64,000 bases of DNA, from the NCBI GenBank assembly GCA_910575155.1, contig CAJTDX010000006.1:1-64000 (forward strand), written 5' to 3'. The notes below the pieces were generated by a model. The model was not told the DNA's origin, searched no databases, and saw only the letters and a list, made by a program, of their open reading frames with translations. Shown piece after piece: positions 9,334 through 54,318 of this stretch; within the stretch, counting starts at the first letter, position 1; the number at the start of each line of letters is the position of its first letter. This DNA comes from Lachnospiraceae bacterium. Its GTDB lineage: Bacteria; Bacillota; Clostridia; Lachnospirales; Lachnospiraceae. Both the position numbers and the translations under genes were made by a program.

Positions 9334-9393
9334 AGTTTTCGATAATATCAGTGTACCACGCCCAATATGGAAAATCGTCCGCGATTTTGGACA

Positions 9394-9852
9394 TCAGCTT
9401 TTCCCATACAGCAGGGTGACCAGTTTCTGCAGGGCGCGGTTCTTTTTCTTGTATGCGGATGTCCGCTCGATGTGGAAACGGTCGCAGATGTCGTAAATGG
9501 AATCCGTCTGCCGTTCATCCTCGGAATAAAAGGTTTCCAGCACATACCGCTCATCCTCAGAAAGTTCCTCCCATGCTGGAAGGAACCACGCCATATATTC
9601 CACCGCCTGACGGTACCGCTCCTTCAGCACGTCAATCTCCTCGATGCCCTTTATCATCCTGTCCTCCACGGCGTGGGGATTGCGGGTATGCGGCATCCCG
9701 TCCGATTTGGGGCTGCTGATCCCGCCCATTTTTTCATATGCCGCCCTGACCTCGTCATCCGTGTGTTCGATGATGAATTTCATGCTGCCGTAGTCCTTCA
9801 GTGCGTCCACGGCCGCCGACCGCTTGTCAAGGTACTTCCAGATAATGCTCAT
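9394..9852 (-). CDS. ArpU/DUF1492-like phage transcription regulator
   Basis: 152 aa starting MSIIWKYLDKR after TTGGAGGCATGG. The C-terminal third looks like a sigma-4-type helix-turn-helix: EELSEDERYVLETFYSE, then DSIYDICDRFHIERTSAYKKKNRAL. The middle contains the [DE]RMIKGIEEIDVLKERY pattern seen in DUF1492/RinA-like late-gene activators. In phages such proteins switch on packaging and late operons; its position just before HNH and terminase fits. Identification is by pattern. Confidence 0.65.
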   Translation of the reverse strand: MSIIWKYLDKRSAAVDALKDYGSMKFIIEHTDDEVRAAYEKMGGISSPKSDGMPHTRNPHAVEDRMIKGIEEIDVLKERYRQAVEYMAWFLPAWEELSEDERYVLETFYSEDERQTDSIYDICDRFHIERTSAYKKKNRALQKLVTLLYGKS

Positions 9853-45553: not shown

Positions 45554-48500
45554 CTACTGTCTGCAATATCCAAATTTCGTTAAAAACTCCCGGTTTGCAC
45601 CCTGTCCAATTTTCCAGGTTCCTTCTCCTCCCTGTGTAATCCATTTCTGGACAGCGCGGACATCCTCATTGGTAAACGACCAGGTTTCCATCGGTGTTTT
45701 ATTATTTAATATACGTTTCAGATATGTAAAATTCTGCGGCTTACGCCACACGGAATGCTCCTCTAACGTGTCCAGGTATTTTTCAGATATAAACCGGACA
45801 TAGTATCTGGGCGTTTCCGCTGTGACGGCCAAATCATCCCACACCATTACCTTTACCGTCTTGTAGGTCGTCTTCATATAGGAATCTGTTACCTGATAGG
45901 TAATATCAAATTCTGCTTTGGACTCCGTCTGCAGCTTAAATTTCTGCGGATCAAAATTTTTCAGTTCCAGTTTACTGCTGAGATCCCCGTCTTCTTCATC
46001 CTCTGCGGATGCTCTGCCTGTCAGGACTTCTGCGGTAATTGTTCCAGCGTTTGCCTCTTCTTTCATATAGTAGAAAACATCGTCACTGTCAATCTCAGGA
46101 TAATTGTTATATTTTACTCTGAGCGGAAATTCCTTCTCTGTGGTATTTCCTTTGCTGTCAGTGACAGCAAACGTCACAAGCACATCCACTGTTTCATCTT
46201 TTTCCAGCTTCAGATAATAGGTATCAAGAAGAAAATCCTCCGGCACATCTGTTTTATAACGCTTTTCATAGGCAGTCTGGCTTCCGTTGCTGGATTGCGG
46301 ATAAGAAATTTTTATAATCCGCAGTTTATCATTCAAATTAGGACTCTTTCCCGCGCCCTCATTATCTTCTTTATCATGCGCTATCAAATGACCGATGATT
46401 TTCTCTTTCGTTACCTTCTCGCCCTCAAAAAATTCCAGTTTTTTCTCCGGATCTGCCACAATCGTCGGAAATGCGTCCCACTTTGCCTGGAAATTGATAT
46501 ATTCCACTGCATGAACTTCTCCATTTATAAAAGGTTCTTTGAACGTTCCTTCCGTCCTGCGGGCAGCCTCATCCAAATTTATTACGTCTGTTCCCAAAAT
46601 ACTGCGGACCGGTTCTGTTATCTGATAAGTACGGATATCTTCGATCGTACGGTCTGAAACTCCTCCTTTCTGATGCGCTTTATCATATAATTCATACGCA
46701 TATTTCTGCTGCTTTTCAGAATAAGTGTTTTCCATGTTCATCTCCCATCCCTGAAAGCTGTATGTTACCTCGCACTCATATTCCTTCCCCTGTTCTGTAC
46801 GTTTTTTCTCGATCTCTGTTCTGGTAAAACCATTCTCGCGAAACTGATAGAACTGTTCCAGAGACACATCGCATTCCAGCATATTCGCTCCTGCAGTAGC
46901 TCCGTTTCCGCTGTATGCCATATTAACATTTTTATAACGGAAATACCTCTGTACTGTTCCTGGTTCCTGAATATCATGAAGTTCAGAACAGCTCTCATAC
47001 TGATACAGGCCGTATCCCGCTTTATCCATATTCCAGTCGCTTCCTGCGAGGCTGCCGCCATGCACGGCCGTTTTCGCTTCCAGATTTCCCAGTTTTACCA
47101 GAGTGCGGAAACGTCCGTCTTTATAGTAAACCGGACGTTCACAGACTGTCACGCCGTTTTTTACTACTTTCAGCTGATAGGCCGTATTTTCCAAAACCGT
47201 GAAATACAGTTCCGCCGTCTGCGCTCCCCCAGTATTTCCTGATGCGGAACCTGCACTCAGAGATGACTGGAAATTCCCAATACAGGTACCTGCTTTCATT
47301 CCTGTCAGGGATACGCTGCATTCCTTCTGAGCTGTTTCGACAATCACTGTCTTTCCGCTGCGGTTATACGTAAGACAGACTCCCGGCTCTTCCCTGTTAT
47401 CTGCGTCAGTCTTCTTAAGATCGCAGGGAATATCTGCATAATCTTCACACTTTACGCTGTAAGCATACTGCGCGTACCAGGTCTCATTTCCGATACTGTT
47501 TCTTTGCTCCCGTCCCTCCTCCGTCAGCTGGCCAGACGCATCAGCCATTTTTGTACCTTTGGTTTTTTCACTGAAATAGCCCTGAAATATATATCCATCT
47601 TTCCGGGGCTGCACAATTTTATGTTCGTCCGTCTTTTCCGTACAGTTCTCGTCAAAATACAGTCCCGTCCTATATTTTTTGTATATTTTTTCTGTTCCGG
47701 ACACTTCAGGATCATTGAGCTGATTATCTAAGGTGACGGTATAAACATCCGGCTGCCAGTTGGCATAGAGGGTAACTGTCCAGTTTCCATGTACCAGTTC
47801 CGGTGCATAAGCTGTCATGGCATAAGATTTCGCCTGATCAAACGAAACGCCCGTACCATCAGAACTTGTATTCCATTCTGCGCCATCTTTTACAGAATAT
47901 CCCGGTCTGGATAAACCGAACGAGGAAACATCTACCGGATCCTGTTCCGTTCCCCCATAATTCCAGTTGCGGAAAAATGTTTCAATCTGAAATTTAGCGT
48001 TATCCGACGATACGCCCTGATTGGCATTATATTTAATAGTCAGAACATTTGGAGTCCACTGTGCATAGAGAATCACTTCCTCTCCAGAAACCGCCGTCAG
48101 GTTTGTTACGGTTTCCAATAACTTATATGCCTTGCCCGTCCCATTTTTCTTTGTGTTCCAACCTGTCAGGGTATAGCCCGGACGCTTATAATTTCGCCCT
48201 TCCCGCAGGATCAGATCTGTGTCGTAAACTGCACTTTGTCCGCTGACGTTTCCAGTTCCCCCATTCGCATCGTAAGCAACTTTATAGTTAATGGGAACAA
48301 ATTTATACACATCAAAAGTATGACTGAGTTTCAGAGGTTTGAATTCCTGAAACCCTCCGTCCCCTCTGGTGCATCCCAGCCAGACATGCGATTCCTGCAC
48401 TTTGTAAAACTGTTCTGTGTTGGGGCAGTAGGAATAATGAAACTCAAAATATGCATAACCTGCGTTTCCGTCCGGACAAACATAAGGGCTTGCGAGATAT

Positions 48501-49416: not shown

Positions 49417-50013
49417 TTAAAATTTGTACTGGAATACGGCATAGAACGTTGCATCCTGGTCAAGAAGCAGATCATCTGAGATCATTGCCTGCGTCTTTGC
49501 ATCTTTCCATCCTCGGAACACATACCCGTTTTTCTCCGGAGGCGGCGGAAGAATCACCGCACTTCCCTGATATGCCGAATACTGTTCATAAATTTCCCCA
49601 TCTACCAGAAACTGCGCAACGCAATAAGTCCGGCGTTGTGAATATTCTTCCAAAATCACTGTTTTCCTGCACCGGGCATGTTTGCCCGTTCCCCTGACCG
49701 TGCGGTAATTCACCCTGACTTCCACATCCAATACCCCTTTTTCCGTATCTGCAGTAAGCACGTCCACCTGAACCTGGCTGTCTGATGAAATCTGCATTAA
49801 CAATGTCTGCTGAAAATCTGCAATCAGCTCCCCCGGATTTTCAATTTTATAACCGCCATCTTTTTTTAATTGTTCCAGCGCCTGCTCCACCGCAGTATTC
49901 AACGCCTTATCCATTTCATTTTCGCGGACGTCTTTGCCGCTGACTATCAGAACTGCAGCGATGACCATCACCACTATAAACAGCAAGGCCGCTCCATAAA
50001 TCGTATGTTTCAT
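49417..50013 (-). CDS. Pseudopilin-like membrane protein with a C-terminal repeat domain
   Basis: 198 aa. Residues 5-24 (IYGAALLFIVVMVIAAVLIV) are an N-terminal membrane helix as in TadE/TadF proteins; a coiled region (EMDKALNTAVEQALEQLKK) and a beta domain follow. The last 50 residues (PPPPEKNGYVFRGWKDAKTQ, then LDQDATFYAVFQ) look like a single Listeria-Bacteroides repeat as in the next gene. It overlaps the previous gene by ATGA. Confidence 0.7.
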   Translation of the reverse strand: MKHTIYGAALLFIVVMVIAAVLIVSGKDVRENEMDKALNTAVEQALEQLKKDGGYKIENPGELIADFQQTLLMQISSDSQVQVDVLTADTEKGVLDVEVRVNYRTVRGTGKHARCRKTVILEEYSQRRTYCVAQFLVDGEIYEQYSAYQGSAVILPPPPEKNGYVFRGWKDAKTQAMISDDLLLDQDATFYAVFQYKF

Positions 50014-50504
50014 ACTCCCTCCTTTCCGGCGGCATCTTTGGGCCTGTCATCGACAATAATGGAAATTTTTTCCGTGCTGATTTTCTGCTCTCTGTCCATT
50101 GCTTTTAAAGAAAATGTGTACACCCCGCTTTGATGAAAGACTGCCTGTTTTGCGTTTTCCTGGTAACAATGTAAAACACTGCCGCCTTTGTGGTCCGTAA
50201 TATCTGCAATCAGAACATCCAGCTCTCCTCCTTCTGCGTCTGCCGCCGAAAACAAATGATCTGTCATAATAGCTTCTCCTGTGTTCCACACCTTTTTCCC
50301 AGTACACTGAATCCGCGGCGCTTCCCGTTCGCATACTGCCTCTACTGCCTGCGTATCCGCCATACAGGAGAAATCTTCCGATTCTGTTTCCATTCGTTTT
50401 CCGATTCTTCCAAACAGCGAAATTGCTATAAAAATTGCTGCCAACGCTGCAAATACAACCCCTGGAAGAATCATATCTGATACCGCTTCATATATTTTCT
50501 CCAT
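50010..50504 (-). CDS. Pseudopilin-like membrane protein with Ig-like C-terminus
   Basis: 164 aa. Helix MILPGVVFAALAAIFIAISLFG at residues 11-32, then an extracellular part with paired Cys and a beta-sandwich-like end (SGVYTFSLKAMDREQKIST, then EKISIIVDDRP). AGGAGG lies before the ATG. It probably serves as a minor pilin or assembly factor. Family not recognised. Confidence 0.65.
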   Translation of the reverse strand: MEKIYEAVSDMILPGVVFAALAAIFIAISLFGRIGKRMETESEDFSCMADTQAVEAVCEREAPRIQCTGKKVWNTGEAIMTDHLFSAADAEGGELDVLIADITDHKGGSVLHCYQENAKQAVFHQSGVYTFSLKAMDREQKISTEKISIIVDDRPKDAAGKEGV

Positions 50505-50512
50505 GTTTCCTC

Positions 50513-50653
50513 CTAACAGATACTTTTGGAAAATATACAGATTGCATCAAAGATCTGACCCTGCGTCAGAAACTCCGCTGCAAATCCAATCAACAGTACG
50601 GAAGCCGACGACGCCACAATTATTTTTCCATATTCTTCAAATACTTCTCTCAT
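50513..50653 (-). CDS. Flp-like micro-pilin, 46 aa
   Basis: Starts MREVFEEYGKIIVASSASV with GGAGG eight bases before the ATG. One hydrophobic helix and a short tail (FLTQGQIFDAICIFSKSIC). The N-terminus aligns with the pilins at 54023 and 50677: [KR]-x-x-x-x-E-[YF]-[SG]. No separate leader peptide is present, only two residues before the hydrophobic/EE motif. Confidence 0.65.
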   Translation of the reverse strand: MREVFEEYGKIIVASSASVLLIGFAAEFLTQGQIFDAICIFSKSIC

Positions 50654-50676
50654 ATTCAAGTCCTCCTGCTTTTTAT

Positions 50677-50781
50677 TTATGAAAGCAGCCGTTCCAGCAA
50701 ATATACGAAGACACCCAATATACTGCCTCCGGCAATCGTATAAATAACAGCTCCTCCAAATTCTTCTATCACCTGTTTCAT
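50677..50781 (-). CDS. Flp-like micro-pilin, 34 aa
   Basis: ATG at 50781 after AAGGAG with a seven-base gap. Sequence starts MKQVIEEFGGAVIYTIAGG and ends VYLLERLLS: one membrane-type helix with the same EE-[YF] motif as its neighbours. Too short for most gene finders. Co-translated within the locus. Confidence 0.6.
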   Translation of the reverse strand: MKQVIEEFGGAVIYTIAGGSILGVFVYLLERLLS

Positions 50782-50810
50782 TTAAACGCTCCTTCTTAGA
50801 TCCTTTCCTT

Positions 50811-51146
50811 TTATTTTGCAAATCCGCGTACCTGATGAGAAGTCACCAAATCCAGAATAGGAATTGCATAATTATAATCTAATATAACCTCTGCCCGTTT
50901 CGTATGACCCCAGGCGTCGTAAACCATCGTTTTCACACGCAGTTTATATCCTTCTTTCTGCGCCTGCTGACGGCAGGCGGCCACCACAGAGGCGTTAAAA
51001 TTGCTGCACTCAATCTCGCTGATTACATCTGCATGATAATTTCTGGCATTTGCAGACTGTATTCCTGCCGTCACCACGCCAATTCCCACCATGCCTGTTA
51101 CTAATAGGAAAAACATCCCCAGATAAGTCTTAATTACCTGTCCCAA
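50811..51146 (-). CDS. TadE-like pseudopilin, 111 aa, TTG start
   Basis: Starts with TTG at 51144-51146, eight bases after AAGGAG. N-terminal helix YLGMFFLLVTGMVGIGVV, then a soluble part containing two Cys (EIECSNFNASVVAACRQQ). The leader of this gene lies inside a 68-base tandem duplication shared with the end of the previous gene. Probably a minor pilin. Confidence 0.7.
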   Translation of the reverse strand: MGQVIKTYLGMFFLLVTGMVGIGVVTAGIQSANARNYHADVISEIECSNFNASVVAACRQQAQKEGYKLRVKTMVYDAWGHTKRAEVILDYNYAIPILDLVTSHQVRGFAK

Positions 51147-51280
51147 ACGCTATTCTCCTTTCCCTGTTTGACGGTTAAAGTTCCTAAACGATGTTATAAT
51201 TTCATCTGCTACAAACGCTATTCTCCTTTCCCTGTTTGACGGTTAAAGTTCCTAAACGATGTTATAATTTCATCTGCCCT
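51145..51280. repeat. 68-bp tandem duplication
   Basis: Two adjacent copies (51145-51212 and 51213-51280), identical over at least 64 bases. The unit carries the last four codons and stop of the TadB/C-like gene and the ribosome site of the pseudopilin gene, so the duplication added a non-functional second gene end between them. Confidence 0.9.
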
Positions 51281-52782
51281 AAAAATACCAGAATAAATAC
51301 TACCATATTTACAATCGTCTGGAACGATACCGTCACCTGAGGCAGATAAAAAATTCCATTGATTCCCGCAAGACTTTTCTCATTGGTCAGCTTTTCTGAT
51401 TTGTCCATCATTTTGCTGTTGCGCTGCAGTAACATGCGAATCTGGGACTGTGCATCCCCATGACCTGATTCTGAGATCGCATACAGCATTTTCATTGAGG
51501 ACAATACCGATGAAAGCTGAAACATTCCCAAAAATTGCAGGTATGGCTCCACGGCATCCGGCGTCTGCTTGAGACTGTCCGAAAGTCTTTGCAAATCAGG
51601 CTTTAAAACTGCCGGCGCCGTCTCAATGGTCTTCTCAATAGAAACCTGCACATTATTCCCCTGAAGAAGCAGCGCCATTTCCATTAACCATCCCGGAAAA
51701 ACACGGTTGATCTCCCTGACTACCTGGTCATAAGCAAGCCGATAGCCAACTTTGTGCTGATTCAGCAGAAAAATAGCTGCCGCCGTCAAAACTGCCGCGC
51801 CAAAAACTTTTCCCAATACGCCTGCCAAAACTGCCGCTGCAAACACCGAGCCTCCAATCACGAGACTCTTCCTTGTTTCTTTCTTCTCATCAAAATCAGT
51901 TACCATCTGAACATATCCTGAAAGCTTGTCTTCCTCTACATCCTCCGGCTCAATCCAGCTTTTGGCGATCTGTTTATTTGCCTTCCTGAGAATGCCAATA
52001 TTCAAAATCAGATACAACGCCGTGCAAATCTGTGTCACAGGATGATAGACAATGGCGTACTTTGACGGCATAGAGCGATACACACAATGAAAAATAACCG
52101 CAAGAAGCACCGTAACTATAAGCGAGAAAATCACTCTGATTCGCGCCGCTTTCTTGTCCTCCTGCAGCAGCATTACATTATCTGCCCATACCGCCTTATC
52201 CTGCAGCAGCAGGTCTATCCCTTCCCGGCAGGCCCCGCCGTTGCTCTCCACGGTACACAGATATTCATGTATGGCGGGAAGCCGGCTTGCAGGATAGGCA
52301 TCTTCAATAATTTTCAAAGCCTCCCGATATAAGTCCTTCTCGTAAACGCCCTGCTCAATATAAGCGATGGCCGCGCCCAAAACCTCGTACATTCTTCCCT
52401 CCGTAAATAAAGTACGGGTATCTTTTAAAGAGAGTAGAATTTTGGGATTCAGGCGAAAAGAATACAAGATCTGTTCCATATAATCCGATACGTCCAAAAA
52501 TCGTCTGTGCTCAAACATCTGCTTATAGCCATCCAGAATAAGAAAAGGCAGGACGGCCATACTTGCCAGCGTCACCAGAAGAATCAAATGCCAGCGCAGG
52601 CTAAAGAGTATCCCGCATCCGATAGCTGCCGCCACAGACAAAAACAGGAACACACTGTATTTCCCCATTGAAAAACTATAACCGTAACTGTCAATCTCCC
52701 GCTGCAGATTTCCGGGATGAAACAACTCAAATCTGCTCTTTCTCTTCTGTCTTTTTATGTTCTTCTGCAGCTTTTTGCTCAT
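51262..52782 (-). CDS. TadB/TadC-like inner-membrane platform protein
   Basis: 506 aa from MSKKLQKNIKRQKRKS, CAGGAGG upstream; the start overlaps the tadA stop. Membrane pairs near 45-85 and 235-290, a pair near 320-360 and one at the C-terminus, with two T2SSF-like cytosolic segments (YMEQILYSFRLNPKILL and FPGWLMEMALLLQGNNVQVS). The length suggests the usual TadB and TadC are combined in one protein. It anchors pilus assembly. Confidence 0.75.
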   Translation of the reverse strand: MSKKLQKNIKRQKRKSRFELFHPGNLQREIDSYGYSFSMGKYSVFLFLSVAAAIGCGILFSLRWHLILLVTLASMAVLPFLILDGYKQMFEHRRFLDVSDYMEQILYSFRLNPKILLSLKDTRTLFTEGRMYEVLGAAIAYIEQGVYEKDLYREALKIIEDAYPASRLPAIHEYLCTVESNGGACREGIDLLLQDKAVWADNVMLLQEDKKAARIRVIFSLIVTVLLAVIFHCVYRSMPSKYAIVYHPVTQICTALYLILNIGILRKANKQIAKSWIEPEDVEEDKLSGYVQMVTDFDEKKETRKSLVIGGSVFAAAVLAGVLGKVFGAAVLTAAAIFLLNQHKVGYRLAYDQVVREINRVFPGWLMEMALLLQGNNVQVSIEKTIETAPAVLKPDLQRLSDSLKQTPDAVEPYLQFLGMFQLSSVLSSMKMLYAISESGHGDAQSQIRMLLQRNSKMMDKSEKLTNEKSLAGINGIFYLPQVTVSFQTIVNMVVFILVFLGQMKL

Positions 52783-53879
52783 ACAACCTCCTGTTCCTTT
52801 TTTCTGATTTCCTGTACCAGTCCAATATCCAAAGGCTCGTACGCACAGGTTTCCGGACAATGAAAAGGCTCCTGGATTCCCGCGCGGTGCAGGCGTTTTA
52901 AGATATCTTCCGGAATTACATCCGAAACCTGTTTTCCATCCTCAACCAGCATGTAAATCTCATTCTTTCCGGAAAAACGGTCATAAAAACACATCTGGTC
53001 TATATAGCGTTCTAAAATCCCCCGATCGTTTTCATATTGCCGAATCAGAACACCCACGCTGATAAATTCATAAATATAATTTTCCAGACGGTCCGCATCT
53101 CTGGAACGCCCAATCATATTCATAATCCGGTCCGGAAGATTTCTAAGATCGTCCAGATGCAGCGTCGTAAACCCATAAACCCCGGTGGACCACTGCTCTA
53201 AGAGATACTGCACCTCCGTAGACCTTGCTTCTGATAAAATAATCCATTTGGGATTCTGCCTCAGACAAAGTTTGATCGCGTCTGTATAACTCAAATCCTT
53301 ACTGACCTGCAGTTCCACACAGTCATTTTCGGGATTAATCTCATGGAAATGCATCTCCAGATTGTCCTCGATGGTAATGGCGCGCTGGTTGGGCGGAATA
53401 AAACGTGAAAAAAATTTGGCGCATTCTGTCTTTCCCACTCCCGGTTCCCCGCAAAAAGCAAAATTCATTTTAGCTTTTACACAATTTATCAGAAGACTTA
53501 ATATTTCTAACGTACAATATTGGCTGTCCAACATACTTTCTACTGTATGCCGCACTTTCGGAAGGGATTTGCGAATGCAGATACTGCGCCCTGACACGGC
53601 TGCCGACTCATGAATAATACTGATTCGAAGCTCATTCGTCTCTGCCTCTAAGACATTATTGGTACGGTTAAAAGGCTTATTGACACGATTGGCAATCCGA
53701 TGCGTAAAGCGTTCTATAAATTCTTCTGTAATGGAAACCTGCGCCTGAAATCTTCCGCGTCTTAAATCTGCAATCCACAGCGTTTTTCCATTATAATCAA
53801 TATCCGTTACATTCTTATCCTGAATATAGGAATAAAAAGGACCAAACTCTTCCTCTGTCAATTCCCAGTCATATTTCAT
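52779..53879 (-). CDS. TadA/CpaF-type secretion ATPase
   Basis: 366 aa. N-terminal domain (about 1-120), then FAFCGEPGVGKTECAKF (Walker A about 145-158), ITIEDNLEMHFHE (Asp box), WIILSEARSTEVQYLLEQW (Walker B) and TTLHLDDLRNLPDRI (His box). It powers Flp/Tad pilus assembly. GGAGG lies before the ATG. It lies 144 bases after the pilin gene, with a folded RNA between. Confidence 0.9.
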   Translation of the reverse strand: MKYDWELTEEEFGPFYSYIQDKNVTDIDYNGKTLWIADLRRGRFQAQVSITEEFIERFTHRIANRVNKPFNRTNNVLEAETNELRISIIHESAAVSGRSICIRKSLPKVRHTVESMLDSQYCTLEILSLLINCVKAKMNFAFCGEPGVGKTECAKFFSRFIPPNQRAITIEDNLEMHFHEINPENDCVELQVSKDLSYTDAIKLCLRQNPKWIILSEARSTEVQYLLEQWSTGVYGFTTLHLDDLRNLPDRIMNMIGRSRDADRLENYIYEFISVGVLIRQYENDRGILERYIDQMCFYDRFSGKNEIYMLVEDGKQVSDVIPEDILKRLHRAGIQEPFHCPETCAYEPLDIGLVQEIRKKEQEVV

Positions 53880-53939
53880 TTATAACCTCCATTTCATATA
53901 TTATTTTGGAGGCGTGACTGAACATCCAGGCCCACCATC

Positions 53940-54022
53940 CGGCAGACCGCGATATTCAGACACGCTCTGTCACACAGGCCATGGAGACAGCCCAGCCTTT
54001 GGGCTGCCCGGCCTGTCTGCCG
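53940..54022 (-). promoter_or_regulatory. Intercistronic hairpin between pilin and ATPase genes
   Basis: CGGCAGAC (54015-54022) pairs with GTCTGCCG (53940-53947), and inner GGCC/GGGC arms extend it. It starts right at the pilin stop with no T-run. Such structures often protect an abundant upstream mRNA and lower downstream expression. Confidence 0.5.
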
Positions 54023-54184
54023 TCAGGAAAGTTTTACTTTGCTGAACAAGCCGTCAATCAGATCGGCAAACGCCTCATGGATCGGCCCATTGCTGGCAAG
54101 CAGTATGCCTATAATGGCAAGCAAAGCGACAATGGCGACAGCCGTAATGATAATACCGCTGTATTCTTCAAAAATAACCTTCAT
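54023..54184 (-). CDS. Flp-like major pilin candidate, 53 aa
   Basis: Starts MKVIFEEYSGIIITAVAIVA after AAGGAGG with a seven-base gap; ends IDGLFSKVKLS. One long hydrophobic helix and a short amphipathic tail, the layout of Flp pilins, but with almost no leader before the FEEY motif. First structural gene of the operon, coupled to the leader ORF by ATGA. Confidence 0.75.
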   Translation of the reverse strand: MKVIFEEYSGIIITAVAIVALLAIIGILLASNGPIHEAFADLIDGLFSKVKLS

Positions 54185-54318
54185 GCCTCTTCCTCCTTTC
54201 TGCGGAATGGCATCCTTACCCTTCTGCGTATTTTACTTTCATTCATGCATTGGTAATCGGCGGACGTTACTGCCAATTGACTAAGAATTCCACGCATATC
54301 CATGTCTGGAAACTGCAT
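54181..54318 (-). CDS. Small leader ORF of the pilus operon, 45 aa
   Basis: ATG at 54316-54318 seven bases after AAGGA: MQFPDMDMRGILSQLAVTSA, then ADYQCMNESKIRRRVRMPF, and a basic/acidic tail (RRKEEEA). The stop overlaps the pilin start. The frame is open further upstream, but only into the promoter. It may be a regulatory or assembly peptide; the ORF itself is not recognised. Confidence 0.45.
   Translation of the reverse strand: MQFPDMDMRGILSQLAVTSADYQCMNESKIRRRVRMPFRRKEEEA

Follow-up and report, generated by a model that had tools for sequence, protein, structure and literature searches.

A compact Tad-like pilus locus of Lachnospiraceae with micropilins that may be assembled without prepilin cleavage

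A defining trait of type IV pilins is taken to be their cleavage by a prepilin peptidase (PMC10191384). A 64,000-nucleotide stretch from a Lachnospiraceae bacterium (assembly GCA_910575155.1, contig CAJTDX010000006.1, positions 1 to 64,000; hereafter the window) raises the question of whether a filament of this kind can be built from pilins that are never cut, as it carries a compact Tad-like pilus operon that encodes three tiny putative pilins (micropilins) with hardly any residues ahead of their conserved motif, and no peptidase. We lean toward the view that monoderm Clostridia possess a distinct Tad-like machine for type IV filaments, specified by this locus and furnished with an adhesive tip, whose pilins are most likely used uncleaved; filament formation, the lack of cleavage, the division of labor among the pilins and adhesion are all read by us from sequence. 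If this is true, a widespread lineage without cleavage would alter the minimal parts list of the type IV pilus machine, and assembly of the Glu5 type would be possible behind an uncut N-terminus.

The operon runs along the minus strand from 54184 to 49417 and comprises eight genes, each start of which is preceded by a strong Shine-Dalgarno (SD) sequence. The initial annotation had described a Tad-like operon with micropilins of 53, 34 and 46 amino acids (aa), a TadA and a combined TadB/C protein, and all eight genes were found where it had placed them; it had overlooked a large surface protein gene that extends the locus to 45554. The genes of the operon are:

54184-54023, minus strand: p53, the first micropilin, 53 aa, beginning MKVIFEEYSGIIITAVAIV; proposed major pilin; ribosome-binding site (RBS) GGAGG
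53879-52779, minus strand: tadA-like ATPase, 366 aa; Pfam T2SSE at 2e-14
52782-51262, minus strand: tadBC-like platform of the inner membrane, 506 aa; a single polypeptide, both halves of which are TadB-like
51146-50811, minus strand: p111, pilin-like, 111 aa, start TTG; relative of plasmid DUF4320 proteins
50781-50677, minus strand: p34, micropilin, 34 aa, beginning MKQVIEEFGGAVIYTIAGG; RBS present
50653-50513, minus strand: p46, micropilin, 46 aa, beginning MREVFEEYGKIIVASSASV; RBS present
50504-50010, minus strand: p164, larger pilin-like protein
50013-49417, minus strand: p198, proposed tip pilin; pilin-like core of ~128 aa and an optional InlB B-repeat domain

This gene order is repeated in ~70 loci, and the arrangement is therefore not a product of chance. 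Although p53, p34 and p46 had no matches in Pfam or NCBIfam, the search for their motif in small open reading frames (ORFs) of relatives, which had been suggested at the outset, recovered through sequence profiles 170 distinct micropilins across 70 loci, with exactly three per locus in 46 of them. These comprise 63 upstream micropilins (p53), 49 of ≤41 aa (p34) and 58 counterparts of p46; one relative (L070) has two identical copies of p53. The motif is held at a constant distance from the start codon, with an aromatic residue at position 8 in 163 of the 170. Glu occupies residue 7 in 85%, and Tyr or Phe residue 8 in 91%; at residue 9, ~98% have Gly, Ser or Ala, and at residue 2, 74% have Lys or Arg, while Gly or Ala was seen there in just 2/170. 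An SD of 4 or more lies at the assigned start in 168/170, and only 24/170 have an in-frame, SD-bearing start at least 4 codons upstream. Among close relatives of the window (TadA identity >=77%), the ratio of nonsynonymous to synonymous substitution rates (dN/dS) is 0.07 for p53 (21 relatives), 0.11 for p34 and 0.20 for p46. Pairwise DNA identity is 0.74-0.86 over the 30 bases that open the coding sequence and drops to 0.26-0.31 at -45..-21. The low dN/dS, together with this sharp drop in conservation upstream of the start codon, marks the short ORFs as genuine genes under purifying selection, including the two of 34 and 46 aa that gene finders would normally skip. Two other candidates fell away: untranslated short ORFs were ruled out by dN/dS, and misassigned start codons concealing a leader by the RBS positions and the upstream loss of conservation.

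Profile and ORF searches of the window's compact locus gave neither an A24 peptidase nor any ORF or family match for TadV, TadZ, RcpA or TadE/TadG, in agreement with what the initial annotation had stated for the peptidase, TadZ, RcpA and TadG. None of the sampled compact loci encodes an A24 peptidase, and no relative's locus has a TadV; the presence of one there had been named as contrary to assembly without processing. With a peptidase profile the peptidases of classical loci were detected at 5e-16 or better and the compact loci yielded nothing better than E 0.44, by which a peptidase concealed within the compact locus was ruled out. The remainder of the window's genome, which was likewise to be checked, does encode two A24 peptidases, both on contig C11, where they belong to a second, classical Tad locus that had initially been missed. 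That locus has TadZ-, TadA-, TadB-, TadC- and TadE/G-like genes. Its Flp1 carries a normal leader (MKSFKDFLMEEEG before the cleavage site, MGVVEVI after it) and matches the Flp1 model at 4e-23, whereas the compact micropilins have no Flp1_like match. Classical Flp1 prepilins of Lachnospiraceae show a very variable leader length, G or A at -1 and Glu at +5 (19/19); as the automatic read-out of leader length took an early match in a few of these sequences, only its spread and the +5 Glu were used. The classical locus (L003, 6973-17704) lies close to a flagellin gene, and its two different peptidases are ~7.5 kb apart, a spacing that recurs in many relatives.

The motor points to a lineage of its own. 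Structures in the PDB matched by the TadA-like ATPase include archaeal GspE2, VirB11 and CpaF (CpaF at ~1e-14), and against the NCBIfam VirB11 model it attains 89.8 bits, below the cut-off of 249.95. In a maximum likelihood tree of 34 ATPases it stands apart from VirB11, and the compact ATPases form one clade (100/99) outside the classical Tad clade. Their sister (100/100) is a clade (100/99) of plasmid-type ATPases from Gram-positive bacteria (E. faecium, Listeria, Peribacillus and the clostridial genome G677), the two being set on a long branch away from classical TadA/CpaF, with the order of the deep groups unsupported. The ATPase of plasmid pLS20, left out of the tree, is 55% identical to that of Peribacillus. 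In genome searches compact and classical TadA were divided by a score gap (3e-39 against 9e-27). Both halves of the platform align with the classical TadB profile (hhalign probability 95.4 for the first, 79.6 for the second). Denise et al. proposed that Tad obtained its TadB and TadC by the splitting of a duplicated platform present in an ancestor (PMC6668835), under which the compact platform would be either unsplit or re-fused.

The three larger pilin-like proteins had been taken together as pseudopilins. Relatives of p164 begin with M-K-x-I-I-x-E-[YF]-G, the N-terminal motif of the micropilins, and 27 of them (110-400 aa) were matched by the micropilin profiles; p111 and p198 lack the acidic pair of that motif. 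AlphaFold2 (AF2) models of p111 and p198 have a long helix from residue 2, followed by a second helix and a three-stranded sheet; in p111 these are helix 2-47, helix 52-65 and three strands (predicted local distance difference test, pLDDT, 79.6). A fold search of the PDB with p111 gave no significant Foldseek match, and VIA-align gave unrelated alpha/beta domains only. The same protein aligns with the plasmid DUF4320 set (hhalign probability 85, E 7e-6; swapped control 2.4%). In p198, Pfam Flg_new (9e-8) and, by Foldseek, the InlB B-repeat 2y5p (2e-5, TM 0.86 on the repeat) were matched. In 17 loci it consists of the core alone (116-138 aa), most others have an additional domain (of InlB type in the window), and in two relatives, L063 (523 aa) and L090 (921 aa), it is fused to large adhesin regions. 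These fusions direct attention to the gene beyond the operon:

49381-45554, minus strand: large surface protein, secreted, 1275 aa; contains InlB-type repeats and lies beyond the operon coordinates first given
45557..45811, minus strand: conserved C-terminal domain of the surface protein, ~85 aa (YVRFIS-KYLDTLE...ETW.F..EDV..VQ.W...), from an iterative profile search

This search gave 34 matches to the C-terminal domain in 32 compact loci, and the p198-adhesin fusion of L063 ends with the same domain. As the domain is found in these loci and is fused to p198 in L063, the surface protein is part of the pilus system, which thus reaches 45554; pilus and adhesin are linked by that gene fusion.

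The sister clade of the motor, a kinship that the initial annotation had also missed, leads to conjugative plasmids. With the Peribacillus ATPase as query, 156 plasmids were matched (tblastn, PLSDB, E<=1e-25), mainly from Bacillus, Listeria and Enterococcus. In E. faecium, Listeria, Peribacillus and pLS20 the cassette has the order p198-like gene, ATPase, TadB, TadC, DUF4320-like gene and small peptides; close upstream is a large thioester or isopeptide adhesin gene, and downstream are genes of the type IV secretion system (T4SS) type, with a VirD4-type gene in three and a TrbC/VirB2-type gene in Peribacillus. The four plasmids checked (L153, L154, L155 and L161) encode no A24 peptidase. Their micropilins begin with MLDQNTDRSWW, MLDQNADRMYW (pLS20) or MLDQNTTRLLF, and no small residue is conserved among them ahead of the membrane helix. 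The window's p198 may be related to its plasmid counterpart, to judge from a weak match (hhalign probability 30, E 6e-4; swapped control 1.5%). The ATPases annotated as 'CpaF/VirB11' on these plasmids, of which the tree included three out of four, fall with compact TadA and not with VirB11. On pLS20 (L161), 9353-9496 and 9523-9666 are identical ORFs for a 47-aa micropilin, of which the first alone is annotated; near-identical micropilin pairs are also found in Peribacillus (L155) and G677 (L146).

From these components the following mechanism may be proposed. The TadA-type ATPase would drive the fused TadB/TadC platform, which would extrude a thin micropilin filament with p53 as the main subunit and p34 and p46 as minor ones; p164, p111 and p198 would compose an initiation or tip complex, and the p198 InlB-repeat domain and the large surface protein would together serve as the adhesin. 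Met1-Lys2 would be retained, with E7-Y8-G9 standing in for E5-Y6-G7 of the mature Flp pilin, and no prepilin peptidase would be required. The mature Flp pilin has a G at +7. A Glu at +5 followed by Tyr at +6 has been described for Flp pilins (PMC3244431), and the micropilin motif can be aligned in two ways: either E7-Y8-G9 corresponds to mature E5-Y6-G7, so that the micropilins would have no leader beyond Met-Lys, or residues 1 to 9 make up a leader of which Gly9 is the last residue. We consider the former alignment reasonably likely and the latter possible but less so, because the distance from the start is fixed and the E-Y pair kept, because the plasmid siblings have no conserved small residue there and the plasmids no peptidase, and because the AF2 helices of p111 and p198 begin at residue 2.

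The strongest contender to uncleaved assembly holds that M-K-x-I-F-E-E-Y-G is a minimal leader that an A24 peptidase, borrowed from the classical Tad system or of the PilD/ComC-like kind, cuts off just behind Gly9, with the product being an ordinary processed filament whose subunits lack Glu5. We regard this as doubtful, yet most of what weighs against uncleaved use speaks for it. The small residue 9 could serve as the -1 position, and the [FIL]-E-E-[YF]-G of the micropilins is similar to the F-L-x-E-E-[DE]-[GA] with which classical Flp1 leaders of Lachnospiraceae end. Further, 150/150 sampled Lachnospiraceae genomes have an A24 peptidase, and no genome with a compact locus and without such a peptidase was found among them; this universality renders co-occurrence uninformative on processing in trans. 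Prepilin peptidases are known to serve more than one system, and MSH loci without a peptidase have been proposed to be processed in trans (PMC6668835). Additionally, the p198 and p111 models, which matched no solved pilin, were built on 25-26 fairly close sequences (pLDDT 70 and 80), and both the filament and the translation of the micropilins are predictions from sequence. Against a nine-residue leader, it would leave mature pilins without the Glu5 found in all 19 classical Flp1 sequences, since position 14 is mostly Thr/Ala, Tyr or Ala/Gly; almost every subunit would have to carry a leader of exactly nine residues, while classical leaders vary widely; and the window's own p53 has Ser at residue 9, where the plasmid siblings carry S, M or L. 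Thus, the earlier proposal of assembly without processing retains the fixed motif position and the missing locus peptidase in its favor, and has to reckon with ubiquitous A24 enzymes and the small residue 9. Literature searches found no paper describing leaderless Tad pilins or DUF4320. It appears improbable that the micropilins instead stay in the membrane for good, as small subunits of a complex of motor and platform by which the surface protein would be exported or anchored, a secretion device with no extended pilus: p34 indeed hardly exceeds a single transmembrane helix, the system has a genetic tie to a large secreted protein and homology to solved pilins is absent, but the motor and platform are of the filament-extruding type, several pilin-like subunits have helix-plus-sheet models and a modular adhesin tip is fused to a pilin core.

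The compact system can be placed among known ones. With classical Tad (Caulobacter Cpa, and Lachnospiraceae Tad/Flp1 as on C11) it shares a TadA-type ATPase, a TadB/TadC-type platform, tiny pilins with E-Y-G just ahead of the membrane helix and accessory pseudopilins. It differs in having no TadV, TadZ, secretin or TadE/G genes, in the fusion of TadB and TadC, in an ATPase outside the classical clade and in micropilins without the canonical class III leader (G/A at its end, Glu at +5). It fails several defining features of a classical Tad pilus, and most likely works like one with an adhesive tip. The tad loci of Gram-positive bacteria without recognizable prepilins (Imam et al. 2011, PMC3244431) are also clostridial and tad-like, with no prepilin signal motif found, but have their own tadV, tadZ and rcpC, none of which the compact locus possesses. 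The plasmid cassettes share with it a sister ATPase clade (sampled from three plasmids and one clostridial genome), a DUF4320-like p111, a possible counterpart of p198, neighboring large adhesin genes and leaderless-looking micropilins of 47-60 aa; they differ in their separate TadB and TadC genes, in the T4SS conjugation genes alongside, none of which is among the operon's immediate neighbors in the window, and in a micropilin N-terminus of MLDQN.. as opposed to M-K-x-I-F-E-E-Y-G.

The compact locus was found in 37/299 Lachnospiraceae genomes, three of which have two copies. Cultured bacteria that carry it include Petralouisia muris and Lachnospiraceae bacterium A2. In a sample of 393 Clostridia, two other families carry it (G381, G579), and the third match, G677, is of the plasmid type. 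Tentatively, and with less assurance than for the compact machine itself, we suggest a deep type IV filament lineage, shared by gut Clostridia and Gram-positive conjugative plasmids and operating without prepilin cleavage, of which the plasmid 'VirB11' would be the motor, used for mating contact. According to a 2025 review, VirB11 is universally absent from Gram-positive T4SSs (PMC12857230), and according to a paper on pLS20 these systems seemingly do not develop pili (PMC8092201); pLS20 carries the cassette despite both statements. The kinship bears on how Gram-positive donors grip recipients. The thioester adhesin of pLS20 is required for efficient mating in liquid (PMC8092201), and its gene is directly upstream of the ATPase-platform-micropilin cassette, so that the question of the mating pair could be tested directly in B. 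subtilis. This species is not known to have an A24 peptidase other than ComC. A literature search on pLS20 with comC found nothing relevant.

The region between the first two genes of the operon contains one more element:

53885..54025, minus strand: intergenic RNA hairpins between p53 and tadA; minimum free energy -74.5 kcal/mol, z -6.6

Comparable folding (z < -2) is seen in 27/37 relatives, against 23/65 control stretches upstream of p53. Such strongly folded RNA would suit a major subunit produced in excess, and the hairpins are possibly a processing or attenuation element that raises pilin over motor. The genes flanking the operon in the window are those of an Mrp-type ATPase, a lipoprotein-like protein and the adhesin. 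At the tadBC/p111 junction (51144-51277) we observed a perfect 66-bp tandem duplication with a period of 68, which takes in the last part of tadBC together with the RBS region of p111. In one relative (L089), an unrelated gene for a 522-aa ATPase-like protein is inserted between p46 and p164, ~3.6 kb after tadA.

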